Shown: positions 107 through 40,173, numbered from the stretch's first letter. The stretch is 64,000 nucleotides of DNA from Sulfurimonas sp. (GCA_002899765.1 PPDH01000029.1:21551-85550), one strand, 5' to 3'. Notes: a model not told the origin generated them from the sequence alone. Program-made: numbers and translations.

Positions 107-3100
107 ATGAAAAAAATCTTTGTTTTTCTCTCTTTTCTCACTTGCATATTTGCGCATGAGAATATAAAATTTGGTGTTTTTGCCTACAAGGGCGTATAAC
201 AAACTCGAAAACAGTATGAACCGCTTGTAAAAGCACTCAATGAAAAGCTCGATAAAAAAGTTATATTGGAGGTTTTGTCTCAAGATGAGATAAATAAAAA
301 AATAGCCGACAAAGAGCTTGACATCGTTACAACAAATCCCACACACTTTTTGGTCATACGAGACAAACATGCACTTAGCGGCGCCATAGCAACACTTAAT
401 GGCTACGCCAATGGCAGCACTACTAATAAGCTTGGTGGCGTTATGATTGTAAGGAAAGAGAGCGAGATAAAAAATCTTAAAGACATTCAAAATAAAATCA
501 TCGCAGCACCCAGCAAATCCCATATGGGAGGCTACAGGGCACAAGCGTATGAGCTCTATCTAGCAGGTATTGATATCTCTAAAAAGAGTAAAAAGATTAT
601 AGAAACAAAGAGTTCTCATCAAGAAGTTGTACATGCTGTTTTATCTGGAGTAGTTGATGTTGGTTTTATAAGGGATGGCATTTTAGAGGAGATGCTAAGA
701 AGAGCAGAGATAAAAGAGGATGATATAAAAATTCTTAATGAACAAAAAGGTTTAGATCATCCTTATAAAGTTTCAACAAAACTCTATCCTGAATGGCCCA
801 TTTTTGCTCTGCCACATATAGAAGAGAGTATTGTAAAAGATTTTATAGGTGCGCTCTTTTCTATCAAATGCAATGAAGAGATGAAAAAAGTAGGTATACA
901 TGATTACACGCTTCCAGCTGATTATCTTAAAACAGAAGAGCTTTCTCGCGCCCTTCGACTTCCGCCTTTTGACAAAGCGCAAAAAGTCATTTTCGCAGAT
1001 ATCTTAAACAGCAATAAAACGGAGATAGCGGCGATTTTTACTTTTTTGCTCTTAGGTCTTTTTTACCATCTAAAAGAGAAAAAGAGAAAAAACTTTATCT
1101 CTTCACTTCTCTCAAATATGGGAGAGGGTGTTTATGGAGTCGATGCGCTTGGAAATTGTACATGGATTAACCAGAGAGCTCTTGAGATGCTTGGATTTAG
1201 CGAAAGCGAGGTTTTACATAAAGATCAGCATGTGCTTTTTCATTACCACAAATATAACGAAGAGGTTTATAGTGCGCATGAATGTCCCATATATCTCACA
1301 GCTCATGATAAAATACAAAGAAGCATGAGTGAACACTTTATAAAAAAAGATGGTTCACTTCTTCCTGTTTACATTACTGTAAATTCTCTAAAAGAGGGAG
1401 GAGCGATTGTCGTCTTTAGAGACATCAGTGAAGCAATCGCCAAAGAGGAAGAGCTTAAAAAAAGTGAAAATCTCTTTAGAACTTTTTTTGAGATTTTTCC
1501 AGAGCCTGTTGTTATAACAGATATCCAAACCCATCTTGCGCACAGCTTCAATAAAGCTGCCCATCTTCAACTTGGTTATACCGCCGATGAGTTCAAAAAG
1601 TTGCGCATAGAAGAGTATGATGCGGTTGAAAATATGGATGAAGTTCGTGAGCACTTAGAGAAGATTATGACAAAGGGAGCAGATCATTTTGAGACAAAAC
1701 ATCGCACAAAAGATGGTTTGCTTCTCGATATATCCGTATCAGTACAGCTTGTAAATATTGAAGAAAAAGATTATATCTTGAGTGTTCACAGAGACATCAC
1801 TAAAATCAAGCGCTACCAAAGAGACCTTAGGTTTCAAAAACAGCGGCTTGACTCTATCATAGAGGGAACAAATGCAGGCACATGGGAGTGGGATATTCAA
1901 ACCGACAGCACTGTCTTCAATGAGAGATGGGCAGAGATTATCGGCTATACGCTTGAAGAGCTCTATCCTGTTTCGGTAGAGACATGGATAAAATATACTC
2001 ATCCGGACGATTTTCTTAAGGCAAAAGAGATTTTACAAAAACACTTTAGCGGCGAGAGTGACTACTATGAGTGTGAAATGCGGATAAAGCACAGAGACGG
2101 ACATTGGGTTTGGGTTTTAGACAGAGGAAAGGTGTCTGAATGGTCAAAAGATAAAAAACCGCTTCTCATGTCTGGAGCACGCCAAGATATAACGCGCATG
2201 AAGCTTGCACAAGAAGAGATTGAAAACAGCCAAAAACTTCTTGAACTCTTCTTCAAGCAGTCAATTTACGGTTTTTTCTTTATGATGCTTGATGAGCCAA
2301 TTGTCTGGAATGATACCATTGACAAAGAAAAAGCGCTTGATTATATATTTGAGCATCAGCGTATTACTAAGATAAACGAAGCGATGCTTGAGCAGTATGG
2401 AGCCAAAGAGGAGGACTTTTTAGGTTTTACGCCCAGAGATTTTTTTGAACATAATATCGATGAGGGGCGCAAAATCTGGAGAGATTTTTTTGATAAAGGC
2501 GCTTGGCATGTCAACACGAATGAGAGAAAATTTGACGGCACTCCTATGATAATAAACGGGGATTACATCTGTTTATATGATAACGAGGGAAGGATTACAG
2601 GTCATTTTGGAGTACAAAGAGAGGTTAGTGATGAGATAAAAAGCAAAGAAGCGCTTATGCTGGCAAAAGAAGAAGCAGAGCGTGCCAATGCTTCAAAAAG
2701 CGAATTTTTAGCAAATATGAGTCATGAGATAAGAACGCCCATGAATGCCATCATTGGGCTTAGCGAGATTTTGCTTGATAGCTATTTAGATGAAAAACAG
2801 TCTGATTATCTACATAAAATAAACAGTTCATCAAGAATGCTCTTGGCAATCATCAACGACATATTGGACTTCTCAAAGATTGAAGCCAATATGTTAGAGA
2901 TTGAACATGAGGAGTTCAGTTTGGCAAATCTTCTCTCTCAAACCATGATGATATTTGCACAAACTGCTCAAAGCAAGGGGCTTAAACTATCATGTGAGAC
3001 TTCAGATGAGATGCCAAATGTGGTAATCGGAGATGAGCTTAGAGTAAGCCAAGTGCTTCTAAATCTCATAAGCAATGCACTCAAGTTCACCAAAGAGGGC

Positions 3101-4435
3101 GAGGTAAAACTCAGCGTCTCACTTAGAGAAAAAACTCAAAACAGCGCTGTTGTTCACTTTGAGGTAAGCGATACGGGCATCGTAATCCAAAAGGAGCATG
3201 TAGAAAAACTCTTCACTCCATTTTCTCAAGCCGACAGCTCCACAACAAGAAAATATGGCGGAACGGGACTCGGGCTCTCTATTTCAACAAGACTTCTTGA
3301 AGCCATGGACTCAAAAATTAAAGTACAAAGTGAAATAGGTGTTGGCTCCGTTTTTAGTTTTGATATAGCTTTTGATGTCTCTTCATGGGAGCAAAACAAC
3401 TTAGTTATGGAAGAGAAATCAAGTAAACGTATCCAAAAAAAATCTCTGGATTATCCCGACTTGAGTCATATAAATCTTCTACTTGTAGAGGACAATATAA
3501 TCAATCAAGAGGTAGCTGCATCTATACTTCAAAGGGTAAAAATCACACCACAAATTGCAGATAACGGCAAAGAAGCGCTAGATCTCTTCTTGGCACAACA
3601 AAAATTCTTTGATCTCATCCTTATGGATCTTCAAATGCCTGTTATGAGCGGATATGAAGCTGCTAAAATCATAAGAGAGCACGACAAAGAGATTCCGATT
3701 ATAGCGCTAACGGCAGCTGCAACTATTGAGGACAAAAACAAGGTGCTAAATGCAGGCATGAATGACCATCTCTGCAAGCCTATTAATAGCGACGAGATGC
3801 TAAAGACGGTTTTGAAATGGCTTGGTATAACTGTCATGAGGGAGCAAGAAACCCAAACTTCTCAAAAAGAAAATGTGGTTTTAGATATTGAGCATATTAA
3901 AAACCTTGTTGGCACAAATGAAAATCTGCTTCACAAAATCTTGTCTCGGTTTTTAAAAGAGCTTGAAGAGGATTTTGCATCTCTGCCTGAGCTTCTCCAT
4001 GCAAACGACCCTCTGGCAAAACCTCTGCTGCATGCACTCAAAGGCGTAAGCGGAAATGTCGGAGCAAATGAACTAAGCTCTTTATGTAAACAGATTGATG
4101 GCATGCACAAAAAAAACATCTTGATACCTCCGCAAAAAATAGAGCACCTAAGAGATGCTATTAGCAAATTAAAGGCTAAAATAAGAGAGACTTTAAAAGA
4201 TGAGGGCATATCTTTTGAGAGAACTTTTTTAAGCGAGCAAGATTTGCAAAATCTCTTTGATGAGATATCAAAAGAGATTCAAAACGGAACCATGGTTGAG
4301 GTACAAAAACAACAGCTTCTTTTTGAAGGACTCAAAGAGAAGATAAATGCACATGAACTAGAGTTATGGATGAGTGCCATGGATAATTTTGACTACAACA
4401 AAGCATACGATATTATGAAAGAGTGGCAATTATAA
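107..4435 (+). pseudogene. PhnD-sensor hybrid histidine kinase with PAS, receiver and HPt domains, interrupted by one stop
   Basis: Multidomain membrane sensor kinase of 1442 codons. From the ATG at 107 it reads: signal peptide (MKKIFVFLSFLTCIFA), a periplasmic phosphonate-binding-like (PhnD/SBP) domain to about residue 290, a membrane helix near 306-324, about four PAS domains (331-840), HisKA with H873 in MSHEIRTPMNAIIG, HATPase, a receiver with D1174 in LMDLQMP, and an HPt with H1309 in HALKG. Codon 31 (197-199) is TAA where relatives have Glu (KGV-E-QTRK), after which the sensor domain continues in frame; a TTG at 266 would only give a product lacking the signal peptide. The ATPase glycine box reads DTGIVI instead of DTGIGI (Val1026, codon GTA). 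The gene overlaps the next one by one base (TAATG). Known family logic: ligand binding drives a His-Asp-His-Asp relay. The ligand is unknown. Confidence 0.85.
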
Positions 4436-5343
4436 TGCAAGAAAACTACACGCCCACAGTACTGATAGTAGATGATGTTCCTGCGAACATCGCCATACTC
4501 TCGGACCTTTTAAAAGAGAACTATAAAATCAAAGTAGCAAACAACGGTCAAAGAGCCCTTGAGCTCGCAAGAGCAAAAGAGAAGCCAGACCTAATCCTTT
4601 TAGATATAGAAATGCCACTCATGGGCGGCTATGATGTTTGCAAAAAGCTTAAAGAATCATCGGATACCAAAGATATTCACATCATATTTGTAACTGCAAA
4701 AGACGGCTTAAGTGATGAAGAGCATGGACTAAAACTAGGAGCCATAGACTACATCAAAAAACCATTCCATCCCGCCATCATAAAGATTAGAGTCAAAAAC
4801 CATATAACACTCAAGCTCAAAAGTGATAAACTTGAAGAAATTTCAATGTGTGATAGCATCACGGGGATTTCAAACAGAAGATTTTTCGATGAAGCTTTTG
4901 AAAAGAAATACAAAGAGACCTCAAGAGAGAAAAAAAATCTCGGAGTCATTATGATAGATATAGATTATTTTAAATTTTACAATGATAACTATGGTCACTG
5001 GAAGGGAGATGAGTGCCTTGTAAAAGTAGCACGCGCTATCAAAAGAACCATAAAACGCCCAAGTGATATTGCTTCACGCTACGGCGGGGAAGAGTTTGTT
5101 GTATTGCTCAAAGACATAGATAAAGAGGGCGTAAAAAAAGTAGCTGAGGCTCTGGTTCATGCAGTTGCGAATTTAAAGATAGAGCATGAGCACTCTTTGG
5201 CTTCAAAGTATGTAACCATAAGTGCAGGAGTTGCTCTAAAAGAAACAGAAGAGATCTCCATGCAAGAGCTGCTAAAAAAAGCAGATGATGAACTCTACCG
5301 CGCCAAAGAAAGCGGCAGAAACAGATTTTGCGCAGAATTTTAA
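4435..5343 (+). CDS. Response regulator with GGDEF diguanylate cyclase domain
   Basis: Receiver-GGDEF protein of about 302 residues that should make cyclic di-GMP when phosphorylated. The receiver has the acidic pair in LIVDD and the phospho-acceptor D57 in LLLDIEMP. The GGDEF active site is RYGGEEF, near residue 220, preceded by RPSD five residues upstream, which fits an inhibitory I-site. The ATG at 4435 overlaps the kinase stop codon (TAATG); a GTG at 4423 is possible but less likely. Being translationally coupled to the hybrid kinase, it is the obvious output partner. No odd residues are seen and the gene appears intact, unlike its upstream partner. Confidence 0.9.
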
Positions 5344-11528: not shown

Positions 11529-11816
11529 ATGGAACTCAAAGTATCTTCAAATACTATTGTTATTAACGGTAACATAAAGAGTATTAGTGACTTTCAAGAA
11601 ATAAAGCGCAGTATCGACAATATCACTGCCGAACACAAGCACATCAATGTAAATGTTATAGATTCTCTCTCCATCACCTCTTCAGTAATCGGTTACTTAA
11701 ATAAACTGATTTTAAAAGACAATATTGACTTGCATATGACAGTAGGAAATGAACAGCTATTTCATCTTTTAGATGATTTAAATCTGACATCGACCTTTAA
11801 AGCAAAAAGAGGCTAA
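11529..11816 (+). CDS. Small STAS-like protein (anti-sigma antagonist type)
   Basis: A 95-residue soluble protein with the pattern of a STAS domain: a first strand pair ([12 protein letters not shown]), a central strand ending in the [13 protein letters not shown] segment, where STAS antagonists carry the phosphorylatable Ser in a D-S-S-G/T context, and a terminal [16 protein letters not shown] helix. STAS antagonists bind ATPase-type anti-sigma kinases when unphosphorylated. Its stop is one base before the chemoreceptor ATG, and the gene after that encodes a PP2C-ATPase protein, so it is the natural third member of a partner switch. Start ATG follows a GAGG ribosome-binding site. STAS identity is from pattern only. 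Confidence 0.7.
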
Positions 11817-11817
11817 T

Positions 11818-13794
11818 ATGACTATTAAATATAAATTAAACCTAATTACCACCATTGTAGTCTCTTTTGCGCTCATAATTATAGCGATTGCCCTAAACAA
11901 AGCGCTCTCTGATAGAAGAACCGTAATGCTGGCACAAGACTTAAATATACTTTCACAAAAGCTTAGTCTTGTAATTCACGAGACACAAAAAGAGCGTGGA
12001 GCGAGTGCCGGCTTTATTGGCTCAAAAGGTACACAGTTAGCAGATATTTTGCCAAAACAAAGAGAGTTGACAACAAAAGAATATAAAGCTTTAAACGCAT
12101 ATATTAACACATTAAATCTTGACACATTTCCAAAAGAGCTCAACAGCGAAATAACGGCATTTTCTTCAGACATGGATAAAATCTCACAGGTACGTTCTCA
12201 GGTTGACTCACTCTCAATCGGACTAGGCGACGTTGTGGCATACTATACAAAAATGAATAAAAAGATTTTAAATATTGTCTCTCTTACGGCAAAACTAGCA
12301 ACCACTCATGAAGTTGTAAAAGCTCTTGATTCATACACAAACTTTTTAAAATCAAAAGAGAGAGCAGGAATCGAGCGAGCTGTTCTTAGCGGAACTTTCG
12401 CAGCCGATAAATTCGGAGAGGGTATGTTTGCAAAATGGATTACGCTTGTCGCCGAACAAGATGCTTTTTTAAACTCATATTTATCTATGGCGACTACTGA
12501 TTCAAAAGCATTTTATGAAGCAAAAATGAACTCACCCATAATCTCGGAAGTAAATAAGATGAGAGATACTGCAAGAGCTAAAGCTATTGAAGGCAGCTTC
12601 GGCATTGATAGCGTTGTATGGTTTAAAACTATAACCCAAAAAATAAACCTTTTAAAAGAGGTTGATGATGAACTTGCAAAACAAAACACTCTGCTTCTAG
12701 AAGAGGTTAAAGCAAAATCCATAGAGGGTGTGACTATTACCCTGGTTAGCTACTCTATTTTTGCAATTGCAATCTTTATAATTATATTTACAATTAGCAG
12801 AGGAGTTAACAGAAGTGTTAGAAGTTCTTTAGAAAAGATAGAGTGTGTTTCAGGAAATCTTGATTTAACATGTGATGTTATCGTTGAAGGTAAAGATGAA
12901 ATATCACAAATTTCTAAAGCCATTCATGTAATGATTATTGCTTTTAAAGAGAGTGTTTATCAGGCAAAAGATGTCTCTGCAACAACTTCCCATGAAAGTA
13001 AGGTTCTAAATGGTATAGTTGACGAACTTACAAAAAACGGCAAACTTGCAGACACAAAAATATCAGGTATCAATGTTTTAGTAAGTGAAGTCGGAGAACG
13101 TCTTGATGCAATAGAAGAAGCTTCTATAACAGTTACCGAGGATTTGAAAAAGACATTTAGTGTTTTAGACGGCTTTATAGAAAAACTTGATTCTGTTGTG
13201 ATAGCGATTGAAGAGGGCAATGAAAATCAGCAAGACCTCGTTCAAAAAGTCTCATCACTTACGGAACAAGCTAAAAATATTAAAGATGTTTTAGCGATTA
13301 TCTCAGATGTAGCAGATCAGACAAATCTTCTTGCTCTTAATGCTGCTATCGAAGCTGCCCGCGCTGGTGAACATGGCAGAGGTTTTGCCGTTGTTGCAGA
13401 CGAGGTAAGAAAACTTGCAGAGATAACACAAAAAAGTCTCAGCGAGATTAGTGCAAATGTAAATCTTATCACTCAAAACGTTGTTGAGATCTCGGAAGAG
13501 ACAAACAAAACATCTCAGAGTATGGGCAATATCGCAAACTCTGCACAAGACTTAATCGCTTCTGCGCAAACAACTAAAGAAAACCTCTCTATTACAACTG
13601 ATAAATCGAGTGATGTGATGTACCAAAGTACTTATATCGCAACAAAGACAAAAGAGCTTATTCGTGATATGGATGAAGTAATAGATATTTCACAAAAAAA
13701 TACACAACATAGAAATCTTGTCGACGATGCTGCTGCAAAACTTGCAAACGATGCAAGCAGACTACAAAATGAGTTGAGTAAATTTAAAATTTAA
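11818..13794 (+). CDS. Methyl-accepting chemotaxis protein with nitrate/nitrite-sensor (NIT) type domain
   Basis: Chemoreceptor of 658 residues. An N-terminal membrane helix ([16 protein letters not shown]) is followed by a periplasmic all-alpha NIT-type domain ([15 protein letters not shown] and [14 protein letters not shown] are typical of this family), a second helix near 305-325 and a HAMP-like linker. The cytoplasmic signalling hairpin contains the highly conserved [19 protein letters not shown] stretch and [16 protein letters not shown]. It would sense a small anion or related cue and signal to CheA/CheW. It sits between a STAS gene (1 bp) and a receiver-PP2C-ATPase gene (TAATG overlap), an arrangement that suggests it may also feed a partner switch. 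The gene is intact. Confidence 0.92.
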
Positions 13795-15485
13795 TGAACA
13801 GCCACATTGATGACTCAATTCTGCACTATCTTAACTCTTTAACACTTCTCTGTGTTGAAGACAACAAAACAACACAACTTCTTTATGAATCCATTTTTAA
13901 TTAATTAGTAGAAGATGTTATTTTTGCGGATAACGGCGAAGATGGATATCAAAAATATAAAAACGAAAAAATTGATTTAATTATTGTTGATTATGACATG
14001 CCTGTATTAAACGGCATTGATATGATCAAAAAAATCAGAGATAACGATAAAGAGATTCCAATTATTTTGGTTTCTGCTATACAAGATATTGATGTAATTG
14101 TTCTGGCACTTCAACTTAATGTCAGTAATTTTTTAAAAAAACCAATTATCGTATCTGAAGTAATGAAAGCAGTTGAAAACGTCTCTAAACTTCTATTTGC
14201 CGGCAACTATCTTAAAGAACAAAGAGAAAAAAAGATAAGAGAACTCGAAAGAAAAGAGGAGTATAACTCTTATCAAGAGGATTTGGCATTTTCAAAATAG
14301 CTTAATATACTCAGAAATGATTTCTATTATCAGATGCATAAAAATAGTTCTGCTACGCTTATAGATTTTTTCTATAAACCGCTTGATGTCCTAAGCGGCG
14401 ATGCATATAGTGCAAGAGAAATAACTGAAGACATACAGCTTTTTTTTATAATCGACGGTATGGGCAAAGGTCTCTCAGCATCACTTAGTTCAATGCTTTT
14501 TACTGCTTATATAAACCATATTGTCGATAAAATAAAACACGATTTTACCCTGACAAACCTCATAGAGTCTGCCCTAGATTATATAAAACCTATCTTGCTT
14601 GAAGATGAAGCGATATCGGCTGATTTTATCGTTATTGACTATAAAAGCACGACCATGCACTATAGCAAGTTTGCCATGCCCTCGTCACTGCTTGAGTCAA
14701 CCTCTAAAGAGATAATTTACATCAAATCCAACAATCCTCCTATAAGCAAATACATAAAAACATTTGAAATCTCTAAAATGGATATTGAACAAATAACAAA
14801 GTTTCTTTTTTATAGTGACGGTATAGTTGAAAATAGTACAAGAAATAGACAAACACTCTATGCTGATTATATAAAAGATGATTTTCTATCCTCTTTTACA
14901 AAAGATGAACTACGGGAAAAAATTTTGTGGAAGATTGATACACAAGAAGATGATATGACATTTATATTTATCAATCAGTTAAAATTAAATGATTCTGTTA
15001 AAAAAATATCCCAAACTTTTGAGAGTTCCCTTGATGCAATAGATGAAGCAAACGAGTGGTATACCGACATTTGGACAGAAATGACGCAAAATTTTAAACT
15101 AGCATATAATGCAGGCGTAGTTTTTTCCGAACTCTTTATGAATGCTTATGAACATGGAAGTCTAGGTATCGATGCTCAAACAAAAAACAGGCTCTTAGCT
15201 GAAGACAACTACTTTATAACATTAGAAGAGATGCAAAAAGTATGCAAAAAAAAGATAACGGTAGATATAAACGTACAAAAACATGATTCAAACAGATATG
15301 TTGCTACCACTATAACAGACGAGGGAATGGGTTTTGATACGCATATACTAAGTAAAATTTTTCGTGACAAAAAGAACTTTAACGGGCGCGGTGTTTATAT
15401 ATCAAGACAATCATCGCTCGGTATATATTACAATTCAAAAGGGAACAGTGTGCTTTTTTTACACAAGATTGAGGATGAAGCGTAG
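13794..15485 (+). pseudogene. Receiver-PP2C phosphatase-HATPase partner-switching regulator, interrupted by two stops
   Basis: Three-domain regulator of 563 codons. Receiver (1-130) has the phospho-acceptor D66 in VDYDMPVLNG and the Lys in FLKKPI. The central SpoIIE/PP2C phosphatase has its metal acidic residues in SGDAY, IIDGMGKG, FYSDGIVE and DDMT. The C-terminal anti-sigma-factor-type ATPase has an N-box in SELFMNAYEHG and a glycine box ITDEGMGFD. This matches HsbR-like proteins that both dephosphorylate and phosphorylate a STAS partner. Two in-frame stops interrupt it: TAA at 13902-13904 (SIFN-*-LVED) and TAG at 14298-14300 (AFSK-*-LNIL), both explained as Glu codons hit by G-to-T. Start ATG overlaps the chemoreceptor stop. 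Confidence 0.82.
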
Positions 15486-16752: not shown

Positions 16753-17103
16753 TTAAACAAAAGATGAGAGAGAAATCGTGTTCATGGCTCTTTTTATAGC
16801 TTCAAGATAAAGTTTATACTCAAAATCACTGTTTTTTTTTGCAGCCTCAAACTCTATCTCTTTTGCCATCTCGTAAATCTCATTAAACTTGAGATTTCCG
16901 GCACTTCCCTTTATGGCATGAGCATTTAATCTGATTTTATCGTACTCTTTATGCTCTATCGACTCTTCAAGAGCCTCTAAAAGCAAAGTCGTTTCATCTA
17001 AAAAACTTTTCATTAAAATAGGCATATGTTTTGTTTTTAGTCCGATAGAGGACGCTAAGTTTTCATAATCTAAAGCCGAATAGTCTGCATCTAGTATAGC
17101 CAT
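16753..17103 (-). CDS. Histidine phosphotransfer (HPt) domain protein
   Basis: Free-standing 116-residue HPt protein. The phospho-acceptor His is in LNAHAIKGSAGNLKF near residue 57-58, followed by a helix (IYEMAKEIEFEA) as expected for a four-helix HPt bundle. It would shuttle phosphate between a hybrid kinase receiver and a final response regulator. No kinase or regulator is adjacent, so the partners are not known; the hybrid kinase at the left end already has its own HPt. Start ATG at 17103. Confidence 0.85.
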   Translation of the reverse strand: MAILDADYSALDYENLASSIGLKTKHMPILMKSFLDETTLLLEALEESIEHKEYDKIRLNAHAIKGSAGNLKFNEIYEMAKEIEFEAAKKNSDFEYKLYLEAIKRAMNTISLSSFV

Positions 17104-20628: not shown

Positions 20629-22185
20629 TCAACCTGCCTCTTGAACCAACTCTAGCTCTTGGATAATTCCACTTTTCTTAAGTTGTTTGATTTTATTTTC
20701 AAACATGCTTGTTAAACGTTTTGAGAATGTAGCACTACTTTTAGAATCTCTAGTCTGTTGCATTGGCAAATGGTGTATCTTTTCAAACTCTTGCACTTTT
20801 TCGATATACTCTGGCATTTTTTGAAGAAATATCTTAGTTATTTTGCGTGCTTCTTTTTTAAAAGCGATAGGTGCAATACCTACAATAGAACCAAGAGTGT
20901 AAAAATCATTTATATTCCAGTTTTTTGGTTTTTTATAGGTGCTTTTCATACCTAAGCCTATATCGTAAGCATCACCGTTATAAATTCCTATAGAGATGAG
21001 ATCATATAGAGGTGAAAGTATATACTTGTTATTTCCAATATTCAGAGCTGCTATATTCTTGAGGTGTAAATCTGCATGTTTAATCAGGTAGCTGTAATAA
21101 TAAAAACGGAGTGCTTCTAGCTTTTGCTCTTTGTTCATCAATGTTTTATTAATTGCTTCAAATAGAGTTTGACTATCACTTTTATATTTATTTTTACTCA
21201 GTATATTTAACACCTGCGCAAAATCTTTTTGGGGATATTTCAACCCCTTATAGCGGTCATATCTTTTTGTTATATAGTGGTAGTCCATATCCTTTGCTTT
21301 TACAATAGCTGTGTATGGTACATTGAAACCAAGCTCGTTCTTTGCAAAACTCATAAACAGATGCTCATTCAACGCAATATATGGAAAATGTCTCTTTTTC
21401 CCATCATCATCTACATGAAAATAGTTGTGTTTCTTTTTATTACGTGGCTTTAAGAGATATTCTGCACTATCAGACTCTTTTATCTGTTTGTTTTTAAAAT
21501 CAATTTCTACATCTATTTTTGTTTGAAAGCCACTTAAATCGGAATGTTCCGTATTTGACTCGGCATCAAGGATATCATCATCAATTAGCAGATCAAAGTA
21601 TAGTAAATTTGGAAAATCATTATCTTGGAGTATCTCATTTTTTACACTTATCCAACTTGCTCTTTTTCCGTAGTTAGATACATACTTATGTACTTCACCC
21701 ATTGGTATAAAATCCAAAGCACCATGAGAGTTGCTTAACTCTTCTAAAACTAGTCCTAAATCCTCTTTGTTTTGTAAAAGCTTTTCCCTTCGTTCATACT
21801 CTGGAATAAGGTTTTCAAAAAATGCAAACAACTCTGAACTTCTGTTGGTATCGCCTTTTTTTAAACCTTCAAACTCTTCACCTTTATAGTTGTTGTCATA
21901 TACAAAAGTATATTCTCCATTTCCAAAAGAGAGTTTTCCGGATTTTTCGCCACTGTTAAAGAGTATATATTGGTGTGGTGCTTCATCCTTATTGTAGATT
22001 CGTTTATAGCGTCTGTCCTTTGTCGTGCCTAATGCTTCAATAAGTCTATACTCTGCTAATTTTTTTAGAGCTCTTTGAACAGTTCTAGGATTCATCTGAG
22101 TTATTGCAATAAGCACAGAAGCAACTATTTCTTGCTCTTTGGTGACAATATTTAGGATAATCTCTTGGGTTTGATTGAGTTTCAT
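20629..22185 (-). CDS. HipA-type Ser/Thr kinase with fused N-terminal winged helix
   Basis: A 518-residue protein. Residues 1 to about 75 read as a winged helix-turn-helix (EQEIVASVLIAITQMNPRTV, then RALKKLAEYRLIEALG). The rest is a HipA-like kinase: NEHLFMSFAKNELGFNVPYT, ITKRYDRY, the catalytic loop HADLHLKNIA with Asp and Asn, and the metal-binding LSPLYDLIS. HipA toxins phosphorylate targets such as glutamyl-tRNA synthetase and are normally paired with a separate HTH antitoxin HipB; here no hipB is adjacent and the DNA-binding part is fused. Tandem operator-like repeats overlap its promoter, suggesting autoregulation. It sits alone between fliD and a fliD relic, consistent with an acquired gene. 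Confidence 0.85.
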   Translation of the reverse strand: MKLNQTQEIILNIVTKEQEIVASVLIAITQMNPRTVQRALKKLAEYRLIEALGTTKDRRYKRIYNKDEAPHQYILFNSGEKSGKLSFGNGEYTFVYDNNYKGEEFEGLKKGDTNRSSELFAFFENLIPEYERREKLLQNKEDLGLVLEELSNSHGALDFIPMGEVHKYVSNYGKRASWISVKNEILQDNDFPNLLYFDLLIDDDILDAESNTEHSDLSGFQTKIDVEIDFKNKQIKESDSAEYLLKPRNKKKHNYFHVDDDGKKRHFPYIALNEHLFMSFAKNELGFNVPYTAIVKAKDMDYHYITKRYDRYKGLKYPQKDFAQVLNILSKNKYKSDSQTLFEAINKTLMNKEQKLEALRFYYYSYLIKHADLHLKNIAALNIGNNKYILSPLYDLISIGIYNGDAYDIGLGMKSTYKKPKNWNINDFYTLGSIVGIAPIAFKKEARKITKIFLQKMPEYIEKVQEFEKIHHLPMQQTRDSKSSATFSKRLTSMFENKIKQLKKSGIIQELELVQEAG

Positions 22186-23987: not shown

Positions 23988-24857
23988 ATGAACTGCCCAA
24001 ACTGTAAAACTAATAATATACGACTATTTCATGACAGTGTTTGGTCTATTGAGAATGGAAAAGTATATCAATGCAACGAGTGTACTCTTACGTTTATTTA
24101 TCCTATGATGAATGAAAAAGAGGAGCGTGAGTTTTACAAAAATTTCAATGAACATGTAAAGGCGCGCGGTTTGGCTACAGGAGAGTCATTGGAAAACTAT
24201 CATAACAAAAGCCTTATGATTGCCAAAGAACGAATGGACATAGTTTCAAAATATTTTGTGGATAAATCAAAAGTTTTAGAGGTTGGTTCAAGCACGGGCG
24301 CTTTTTTATCGCTGCTGCAAAATTGTGACACCTCCGCAGTAGAACCTTCAGATGATAACAGAGAATTTTCTAAGCAGTTCATAACTAACAAAACATACAG
24401 TTTGATTGAGGAGATCTCAGAGAGTGAAAAATTTGACATTATATGTATGTTTCATGTTTTTGAACACATTAAAGAACCCGCTAAGTTTTTAGATAATTGT
24501 AAAAAACTTCTAAAAAATAACGGCATCATCTTAATCTAAGTGCCGCACATCGAAGATCCTCTTATTTCCATATATGATATTAAGGAGTTTAAGGATTTCG
24601 TTTTTCAGCCTATGCACCCGATGATTTATTCCGTACAGTCACTAGAGTATATATTTAAACAAAACGGATTTTCATCAACTGAAATAATCTATCATCAACG
24701 TTATGGCTTAAGCAATCATTTAACATGGTTGAAATATAAAAAACCAGGCGGCGATAAAATATTTGATGAAATCTTTAAAGAAGACAAAGAGTATAAAAAA
24801 TCTATAGAATTTACAAAAAAAACCGATACTCTCTTCTATATAGTCTCAAAAGTATAA
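23988..24857 (+). pseudogene. Zinc-ribbon class I SAM methyltransferase, interrupted by one stop
   Basis: A 289-codon methyltransferase. The N-terminus is a zinc ribbon (CPNCKTN and CNECTLTF), as in sugar C-methyltransferases. The SAM site is VLEVGSSTGAFLSLL, followed by AVEPSDDNREF and the FDIICMFHVFEHIKEP motif. Codon 184 (24537-24539) is TAA in ILI-*-VPHIEDPL, where the family has Glu (LIEVPN), so GAA to TAA. The frame resumes with no shift and keeps family-like sequence to 24857. Its place next to a radical SAM gene and a nonulosonate synthase suggests sugar methylation. Confidence 0.85.
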
Positions 24858-27505: not shown

Positions 27506-29512
27506 GTGGAATCTATTCAACAACAAGCAATTCATACATTTCAAGAAAATTTATCTTATTTAAGAGAAATGCACCCAAATGTTTTCAAGAAAGTAGATAT
27601 TTTAAATCATGCTATTGAAAATGGCTCTTATAAAGAAAAATATTCTCTTGAGTATAAAAATGGGTACTTTGATGTCTTAGACCTTCAAACAAACCACTAT
27701 TTGTACAATCAAAGCAGCATCGAGCATGCGAAGACATTGACAAAACAGGTCAACTTTAAAAAATCATCCAGCGTTATAGAGAGTTTTTACAAACAACACT
27801 TAACACAAGAAGATGTAGATAGATACGACTCTAAACCACCAAAGCTAGACCCTTTATTTGCTGCCGCAAAAATAATTTACTATGCAAATAACGTATCATC
27901 CGAAGATGATGAGATGAAATATATACAAAAATATATATTTTGCGGCGTCGGCTTAGGTTTGCACATACCGCTTATTCAAAACAAAACAAAATCACAGCAG
28001 CTTTTTATAATGGAAGACAATCTTGAACTTTTTAGACTATCGCTTTTTACCACGGATTACAAAGCGTTGTCCACAAAAGCAAAACTCTATTTTTCTATCA
28101 TGGATGATGAAGCGGATTTTAAAAACTCAATAGAGTATTTTTATGTCTTGGGCTTTAACAACAACCACTACTTAAAATATTCACTTTTCTCACAATCGGA
28201 TTTACCAAAAATAAAAAAGGTTCAAAGGTTTATAGTTTCTAACGTTTTTTTATAATACCCCTATTCTGACACATTGAGATCTCATTTAAAATCTCCGGAA
28301 TATTTAGTGGAAGGTTACCCTTTTATAGACTTTTCAACCATTCATAAAAACTCCCTTTTTTCCAACAAACCGCTTCTTTTTTTAGCTGCGGGACCTTCAC
28401 TCGATAGCAATTCAAAGTGGCTTCAAGAGAATAAAGATAAATTTTATATAGTATGCGTACTTGCTGCAGTCAAAACGCTCTTCAAGCTAGATATAAAACC
28501 TGACATAGTAGTACATATAGACGATAAGGCAATATCTGTTAATTTTCTTGACGGTGTCGATAAAAAGAGTTTTTTAAATAAAACAGTTTTTATCTTTTCA
28601 TCTACGGTTTCTAGAAATGTAATAGAGAGTTTTGATAAAGAAAATATCTTCTTTTTCGATAAAAGCGCAAGCTATAAGATAGATTTTGGATTTTTTTACT
28701 CTGTTAGCGTCGGCGAAACCGGTTATGCCATAAGCTTATTACTGGGAGCAAAAGAGCTATATCTGCTCGGACTTGACTTAGCGCTTGATCCACAGACAAA
28801 AAGAAGTCATGCAGAGGGGCATATGTCAAGCTCTGTTATAGACCAAAAAGAGACTGAAAATTATCTTCATTTGCATACAAGTATGCTGGAAGTAAAAGGG
28901 AATTTTTTAAAAGTTGTTCCGACAACCACTACTTTATCGCTTTCTATAACTTATTTTAATGATTTTTCGGACAGATATCTTATAAACAATCAAAAGGTTT
29001 ACAACCTTGGCAACGGAGCCTATCTAAAGGGAGCAACTCCGCTAAAAACTGAAGATGTAGCTACGGCTAGGTTTTCAACTTTAGCACGGCAAGAAAAGTT
29101 TGAGGCTATAAAAGTATTCTTAAGAGAGATTTCACAATGCGGTGCAAATGAAAAAGATATAAAATCTTTAGAAGAGCAGTTACAAGAAGCACTTAGGGTA
29201 AAAATGCATGTACTAAAATTTAAAAAAACAGCACCCACGAGCAATTACGAATCATATATGAAAACTTTTTATATATTGACAACAGAAATGATAAATGAAA
29301 AAAGTACTAAGAAATACGCAGTTAATACAATCTTTTATAGCTATTTGCCAATAATAAGCGGTTATATATTTAATATATTTAATACAAAAAATCTAAAAAA
29401 CTCTAAAAGACACCTAAAAAAGATACATGATATTTTCTCAGAGCAGGTTATAAAAATCTTAGATTTATATATAGATACAATGAGTGTTTATAAAAAGTGG
29501 ATAGAAAAATAA
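27506..29512 (+). pseudogene. Motility accessory factor (Maf, DUF115 family), interrupted by one stop
   Basis: Maf proteins transfer nonulosonic acids to flagellin in Campylobacterota. The 668 codons read as an N-terminal domain (HPNVFKKVDIL, FCGVGLGLHIPLI) and the central MAF_flag10/DUF115 core (FLAAGPSLDSNSKWLQ, YIVCVLAAVKTLFKLDIKPD, VGETGYAISLLLGAKELYLLG with LDLAL), then a helical tail. Codon 250 (28253-28255) is TAA in NVFL-*-YPYSD, plausibly GAA; the core begins only downstream, so a product stopping there would be inactive. Start GTG at 27506 has AAGG about 10 bases upstream. It closes the sigma-54 operon and is convergent with flagellin. Confidence 0.88.
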
Positions 29513-39642: not shown

Positions 39643-40173
39643 GTGTGTAATTTTAACAAACATAACGAAGATACCAAAGCATTAATGCACCTTTTGATAC
39701 AAAAATGCGCAGAGGCGGTAGGCGGAGCCAACTTTCTCTTAGGACTGCATGAAGCCATAAAAGAGAAAAAACCCAATGCTTTAATTAGCAGCGCTTGCAA
39801 AGTGGACTCCAAAGAGCTAAACATCAGGTGGAATAAAATAGTTTTTAAAGATAAATTTGATGTTTTAGAAGAGGCGGTTCGTTAACATAAAAGCACAGAA
39901 AACCCGGATTTCAACCTGCTTCAAAACGATAGTCAAAAAAAGAAAAAAAAGATTTTAAACATGGTAAAAACCTTAGCGCCGATTGAATTTATCGTAACCG
40001 TTAAAAATTCTGAAGATTTTGGCGGATTTAACTTTAAAATATTTGAAACCATTGAAGATGATTATGTAAAAGTCAACCCTATTTTTGCAGCGATGTTTTT
40101 CTGCTCAACCGAATACATGAAAAAAGCTCTAAGATACGAGATTTATGATTTGGATATTACGAAAGATTTATAA
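39643..40173 (+). pseudogene. Unknown protein, interrupted by one stop
   Basis: The frame from the GTG at 39643 encodes a soluble protein of 176 codons without signal or membrane segments. Codon 81 (39883-39885) is TAA in EAVR-*-HKST, consistent with a lost Glu; downstream the same frame continues through a Lys-rich linker to a mixed alpha/beta part (LAPIEFIVTVKNSEDFGGFNF). I do not recognise the family. The end overlaps the convergent rsuA by 17 bp. A TATAAT-like element near 39607-39612 could be the promoter. Joining the halves is inferred from frame continuity and the other cases in the window. Confidence 0.6.

Follow-up and report, generated by a model that had tools for sequence, protein, structure and literature searches.

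A chemoreceptor within a conserved partner-switch operon of Sulfurimonas, and the joint loss of the regulator's receiver and a stand-alone Hpt protein

Here we describe an operon of Sulfurimonas and its relatives in which a chemoreceptor gene lies between the genes for a STAS-fold antagonist and for a regulator with receiver (REC), PP2C phosphatase and HATPase kinase domains, an order of STAS, chemoreceptor and regulator that is conserved far beyond chance. We propose that it forms a partner switch of the HsbR/HsbA type that receives two inputs, from an Hpt phosphorelay and from a chemoreceptor that works independently of the receiver, a reading whose chances we put at about even. Chemosensory arrays and partner switches are mostly treated as separate subjects, and Sulfurimonas and its relatives provide a natural experiment: the operon comes with receptor and receiver, with either alone, or with neither. 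The comparison separates the two inputs and makes a link from Hpt to receiver predictable, and it raises the question of what effect a chemoreceptor has on a phosphatase and kinase when there is no receiver.

The window (the whole 64-kb stretch of DNA that was analysed) comes from a 2.39-Mb Sulfurimonas sp. genome in 45 contigs. ORF calls place the three genes on the plus strand, with one base pair between the STAS stop and the chemoreceptor start and a TAATG overlap of chemoreceptor and regulator at 13794; from this overlap and spacing they are predicted to form a single operon. The layout is the one given in the initial annotation, and calls and junction sequence bear it out for the STAS and chemoreceptor ORFs and the regulator start, but the third gene is not one open frame, being interrupted by TAA at 13902 and TAG at 14298. 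Upstream lie RarA, RluB and KpsF, and downstream rplT and rpmI; among the operon and its neighbouring genes we found no cheA, cheW or adaptation genes. The features are as follows.

11529-11816, plus strand: STAS-fold antagonist, 95 aa (ORF, AF2 fold, homolog alignment)
11818-13794, plus strand: chemoreceptor, 658 aa, with TM, NIT sensor, TM, HAMP and MCP signalling hairpin (ORF, Pfam)
13794-15485, plus strand: regulator frame with REC, long helical linker, PP2C (SpoIIE/RsbU type) and HATPase (RsbW type), and two in-frame stops (Pfam, alignments, model)
13848-14174, plus strand: receiver domain, residues 19-127 (Pfam, residue check)
13902-13904, plus strand: in-frame TAA, codon 37, GAT/GAC in relatives, probable sequence error
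14151-14309, plus strand: linker helix, residues 120-172 of the modelled G004 regulator (model, alignments)
14298-14300, plus strand: in-frame TAG, codon 169, GAG in G004 and nearly invariant Glu, probable sequence error
14331-14978, plus strand: PP2C phosphatase domain (Pfam, alignments)
14979-15482, plus strand: HATPase (anti-sigma-like kinase) domain (weak Pfam, alignments)
16753-17103, minus strand: 116-aa stand-alone Hpt (phosphotransfer) protein, the receiver's probable phosphodonor (PF01627)

The 95-aa protein has no match to Pfam STAS, and among 30 homologs that profile matches two weakly and the others not at all. Its AF2 model (pLDDT 92.7) finds STAS anti-sigma antagonists as the top PDB matches in a fold search (probability 0.99-1.00, TM 0.55-0.71), including those of Mycobacterium, RsbV, SpoIIAA, TM1081 and TM1442. 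The STAS fold, whose absence had been named as grounds for giving up the partner-switch reading, is thus present in the model, and by its predicted structure the protein is a diverged STAS subfamily with a SpoIIAA/RsbV-type fold. When the STAS profile was searched against PDB sequences the best hits were viral coiled coils, which we judged to be a low-complexity coincidence, the fold search having settled the identity; RsbV came fourth in that list, over its full length, at an E value of 0.015. Serine 51 is invariant in the 30 homologs and sits at the N-terminal end of helix 2, where a profile alignment places it at the SpoIIAA/RsbV phosphoserine (the DST region of RsbV), making it a candidate phosphorylatable serine of the antagonist.

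With the stops ignored, the third frame reads as a REC-PP2C-HATPase regulator, with Pfam matches to REC (2.6e-21), SpoIIE-type PP2C (7.5e-16) and HATPase_c_2 (0.0012). The last score misses the Pfam cut-off, but the residues of the N (ELFMNAYEHG), G1 (DEGMGF) and G2 (GRG) boxes are invariant in alignments, as are all catalytic residues of PP2C and HATPase; every metal-binding Asp of the phosphatase is present (SGD, DGMGKG, SDG, DD). The receiver has its acidic pair E22/D23, the phospho-acceptor D66, S94 and K116. This order of receiver, PP2C and kinase/anti-sigma domain matches the definition of the HsbR/HsbA type (PMC6482189), for a frame assembled across two stops that we judge to be errors. 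The model built for the G004 regulator shows the linker as a single helix (residues 120-172), whose C-terminal end is a conserved KELNILRNDFYY motif; regulators that have no receiver begin near this linker and retain the conserved end YxxYQEELAFxKELNILRNDFYY. Foldseek ranks P. aeruginosa RssB (REC-linker-PP2C), the closest solved structure, and the RsbU-RsbW domains of Rv1364c at the top for the G004 model. Coiled-coil linkers are a general means of controlling PP2C phosphatases, and the input domains attached to them can be exchanged, as in the dimers of RsbU and RssB (PMC12143880).

Because of the two stops the ORF caller returns only pieces of 100 and 383 aa for the regulator, and the gene calls of this assembly need careful reading. 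In relatives, none of the 22 regulator frames that were compared is interrupted. Similar interruptions occur in thiG (window 5838), which shares 95% identity with the G004 ortholog yet has TGA for GGG; in nnrD (6692), with TAA in place of TCA; in rluB (9967), which terminates at TGA where G004 has GGG and reads on; and in the essential rpoD (L204/L209), with TAA against a serine TCN in both relatives compared. Each of these stops, including those of the regulator, is one G:C>T:A change away from its likely ancestral codon. Since the same kind of stop is found in essential rpoD and in thiG, nnrD and rluB, while the frames of relatives are open, the regulator stops are probably sequence errors, or at the most mutations that arose very recently. 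Taken at face value, the two stops would make the regulator a pseudogene in this Sulfurimonas sp., leaving no working switch or just a free PP2C-HATPase. We consider that very improbable: besides the stops shared with rpoD and the other three genes, the window receiver is 84% identical to that of the sister and the PP2C domain 66%, so constraint on the receiver stayed strong up to the break. We take it that the regulator, broken as it reads in the assembly, is intact in the living organism.

Such errors are sparse. A high genome-wide error rate was rejected: just 2 of the genome's 62 receiver domains contain a stop, its 19 MCP domains contain none, and there is no excess of window-unique substitutions. 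An alternative genetic code with TAA or TAG read as Glu or Gln was likewise set aside, both codons terminating most ORFs of the window, those of STAS, MCP and regulator included, and R536I in the chemoreceptor is doubtful as an additional error, the same residue occurring in another receptor of the genome (L117). The G:C>T:A stops across thiG, nnrD, rluB and rpoD look like an oxidation-type error signature or a recent mutator. Three more pairs of same-frame ORFs in the window (23988-24857, 27506-29512 and 39643-40173) are split by single stops, probably interruptions of the same kind; they apparently represent a methyltransferase, a motility-associated glycosyltransferase and a gene without assignment.

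A survey of species genomes yielded 79 loci, and in 35 of them, from Sulfurimonas and Sulfurospirillum relatives, the MCP gene lies between STAS and regulator (20 STAS-MCP-REC-PP2C-HATP and 15 STAS-MCP-PP2C-HATP). The order is therefore kept outside the Sulfurimonas sp. genome, and the failure of conservation that the initial annotation had named as refuting its proposal did not appear. Beyond these, 5 loci are STAS-REC-PP2C-HATP, 9 are REC-PP2C-HATP-STAS without MCP (mostly Nitrospirota), 2 are MCP-REC-PP2C-HATP-STAS (L163, and L177 from Candidatus Thiovulum), and the remaining loci have other orders or are truncated; 5 loci outside the 35 have an MCP that lies elsewhere in the operon or is truncated. 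In 25 of the 35 scored loci, MCP stop and regulator start share one base. Nearly all Sulfurimonas genomes that carry the operon have it in one slot, KpsF-RluB-RarA-[operon]-rplT; a search for long synteny with G004 beyond L062 found none. Trees of the flanking genes, the switch and the MCP recover largely the same genome groupings, with at least three separate receiver losses, each of which kept the linker, and several receptor losses.

A second STAS-MCP-REC-PP2C copy (L095, G036:C71) has an interrupted MCP frame and a regulator without HATPase. SypE-type regulators are built as kinase-REC-PP2C from the same domains, and related operons in other Campylobacterota families (L094, L097 and L098) have HATPase-REC-PP2C with STAS upstream, whereas the order in the window is REC-PP2C-HATPase. 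L097 has an MCP gene upstream of STAS; receptor and switch became associated independently there.

The stand-alone Hpt protein (PF01627 at 6.9e-11, with the motif HAIKGSAGNL) is encoded 1.3 kb from the operon. In a first genome set, with an ortholog defined as a strong match at E < 1e-20, Hpt occurs in 13 of 15 operon genomes whose regulator has a receiver and in 0 of 8 whose regulator has none (Fisher 9e-5). A second set of 33 genomes, without overlap with the first and classed by receiver residues, gave 10 of 13 for phosphorylatable receivers, 2 of 6 for degenerate ones and 0 of 14 for no receiver. Combined, Hpt accompanies 23 of 28 phosphorylatable receivers and 0 of 22 receiver-less regulators (Fisher ~1e-9, relatedness ignored), though the effective sample is far below these counts because the independent receiver losses number at least three. 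Exceptions run both ways: L160 and L167 keep Hpt though their receivers are without the phospho-acceptor Asp, and five genomes with a phosphorylatable receiver have no Hpt ortholog; orthologs may escape detection in incomplete assemblies. The genes for HptB and HsbR are neighbours in P. aeruginosa, where HsbR receives its phosphate from HptB (PMC6482189, PMC5085249). Given this precedent and the co-occurrence, the stand-alone Hpt is most likely the phosphodonor of the receiver, in the manner of HptB and HsbR. An Hpt ortholog is also present (G008:C1:154729-155067) in a genome that has no STAS/PP2C operon, where it may serve another partner or be a relic.

The chemoreceptor had been called nitrate-sensor-type, and Pfam agrees, with NIT (PF08376) at 1.4e-59, MCPsignal at 4.6e-32 and a weak HAMP; by this profile the domain is a predicted nitrate/nitrite sensor. 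The tip has the canonical CheA/CheW-contact residues of array receptors, and it is followed by 141 residues, as in four further receptors encoded by this genome (two are dCache type by sequence), so tip and hairpin length suggest that the receptor can join an array. About 56 hairpin positions are conserved in the operon receptors but missing from four others of this genome. Every operon-bearing genome of the genus that we searched has the main CheA, and the operon is found in 24 of 31 genus genomes with main CheA and in 0 of 6 without it (p 7e-4, kinship ignored), which assigns it to motile, chemotactic lineages. Of 22 loci without a receiver, 20 still have the chemoreceptor, as do four whose receiver cannot be phosphorylated (L160 and L167, together with L165 and L168, labelled Sulfurospirillaceae/Sulfurospirillum), so any effect of the receptor on the switch would not obligatorily run from CheA to the receiver. 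The receptor is missing from six Sulfurimonas-type loci of the survey (5 STAS-REC and 1 STAS only), so it is not essential to the switch.

In the mechanism that we propose, hybrid kinases would phosphorylate the nearby stand-alone Hpt, which would hand the phosphate to D66 of the receiver. The linker helix would relay the receiver state to the balance between PP2C phosphatase and HATPase kinase, both acting on S51 of the STAS protein, and the phosphorylation state of S51 would then choose the STAS partner, an anti-sigma factor such as FlgM or some other target; we infer these steps by analogy with the known switches. As a second input, the co-translated NIT chemoreceptor would tune the same phosphatase and kinase with no need of the receiver, most economically if the receptor, or its array, contacts the retained linker helix. 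Such control by contact is conjectural, and the strict form of it, with the chemoreceptor driving PP2C/HATPase directly through the linker helix and needing neither CheA nor a receiver, we hold only tentatively and as rather unlikely. If it were true, it would give chemoreceptors an output besides the CheA-driven phosphorylation of response regulators.

The initial annotation had the receptor array, or a CheA-like kinase, in control of the switch. This would have the receptor sit in an array and CheA phosphorylate the regulator's receiver, as proposed for Che1 and CrsR of Shewanella on the strength of genetic linkage (PMC9855816), and the canonical tip, the equal hairpin length, the constant presence of main CheA and the phosphorylation residues in the window species' receiver are all in keeping with it. 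We nevertheless find it doubtful: the receptor persists where the receiver is gone or degenerate, the presence of the receiver follows the stand-alone Hpt instead, and the operon has neither cheA nor cheW. The CheA part of the claim thus loses ground, and a link from receptor to switch stays plausible. The arrow could also point the other way, with the STAS protein or the kinase/phosphatase modulating the receptor as an output, for example a nitrate taxis gated by lifestyle. The close spacing of STAS and MCP, the specialised hairpin positions and the survival of the receptor after the phosphorelay input was lost would all suit this, but those positions may reflect common descent only, and we can cite no known example in which a chemoreceptor is the target of a STAS protein or a PP2C; we regard this reading too as quite unlikely.

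Perhaps there is no contact at all, and an ordinary nitrate/nitrite chemoreceptor is simply made alongside a motility switch. A receptor with a canonical tip may simply do chemotaxis; the hairpin is array-competent, the operon is missing where main CheA is missing, and several species have lost the receptor or have it upstream of STAS. Co-expression alone strikes us as unlikely, if somewhat less strained, since the receptor's place inside a tightly overlapping operon has been kept over dozens of species, with another order in Candidatus Thiovulum, and the trees of receptor and switch group similarly. The broader proposal of a two-input switch is the one we carry forward.

The closest known switch is HsbR/HsbA/HptB of Pseudomonas aeruginosa (PMC6482189, PMC5085249), which shares with Sulfurimonas the REC-PP2C-kinase regulator, the STAS antagonist and a stand-alone Hpt nearby, with FlgM and FliA in the Sulfurimonas genome. 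The HsbR/HsbA character of the operon claimed in the initial annotation, chemoreceptor included, accords with the domains, the STAS fold and the conserved order. In Sulfurimonas, by contrast, a chemoreceptor lies between STAS and regulator, Hpt is encoded on the opposite strand at some distance, no RpoS was found in the Sulfurimonas sp. genome, and receiver and Hpt are jointly absent in many species. Our genome search for sigma-70-type factors returned RpoD and FliA only, with FlgM also present and no RpoS or sigma-B-type factor found, so an RpoS-type output is unlikely; FlgM/FliA is a possible target by analogy. RsbU/RsbV/RsbW of Bacillus and Rv1364c of Mycobacterium likewise have PP2C, HATPase, a STAS substrate and a linker helix N-terminal to PP2C, whereas here phosphatase and kinase are fused behind a receiver and the genome search found no sigma-B-type factor.

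The statement that no chemoreceptor was known inside a switch operon has to be withdrawn. In Shewanella oneidensis, che1 joins two chemoreceptors, CheA1/W1/Y1/R1/D1/B1 and the CrsR/CrsA switch (anti-sigma regulator and STAS antagonist) in one transcription unit (PMC9855816). That operon carries its own Che proteins, whereas the Sulfurimonas operon has the receptor only, and Aer2so of Shewanella is of the 36H class, whereas the Sulfurimonas receptor matches the hairpin length of its own genome's dCache receptors, 40H by count. Our literature searches found no report of a receptor-switch combination in Epsilonproteobacteria. As far as they reach, the receptor-only operon of Campylobacterota, the joint loss of Hpt and receiver, and the persistence of the receptor independently of the receiver are new.

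Elsewhere in the window, a hybrid kinase gene (266-4435) encodes a phosphonate-binding-type sensor, PAS domains, REC and a C-terminal Hpt, and overlaps a gene for a REC-GGDEF diguanylate cyclase (4423-5343). The protein encoded at 20629-22185 resembles, by eye only, a fusion of a HipA-like kinase and a winged-helix domain.
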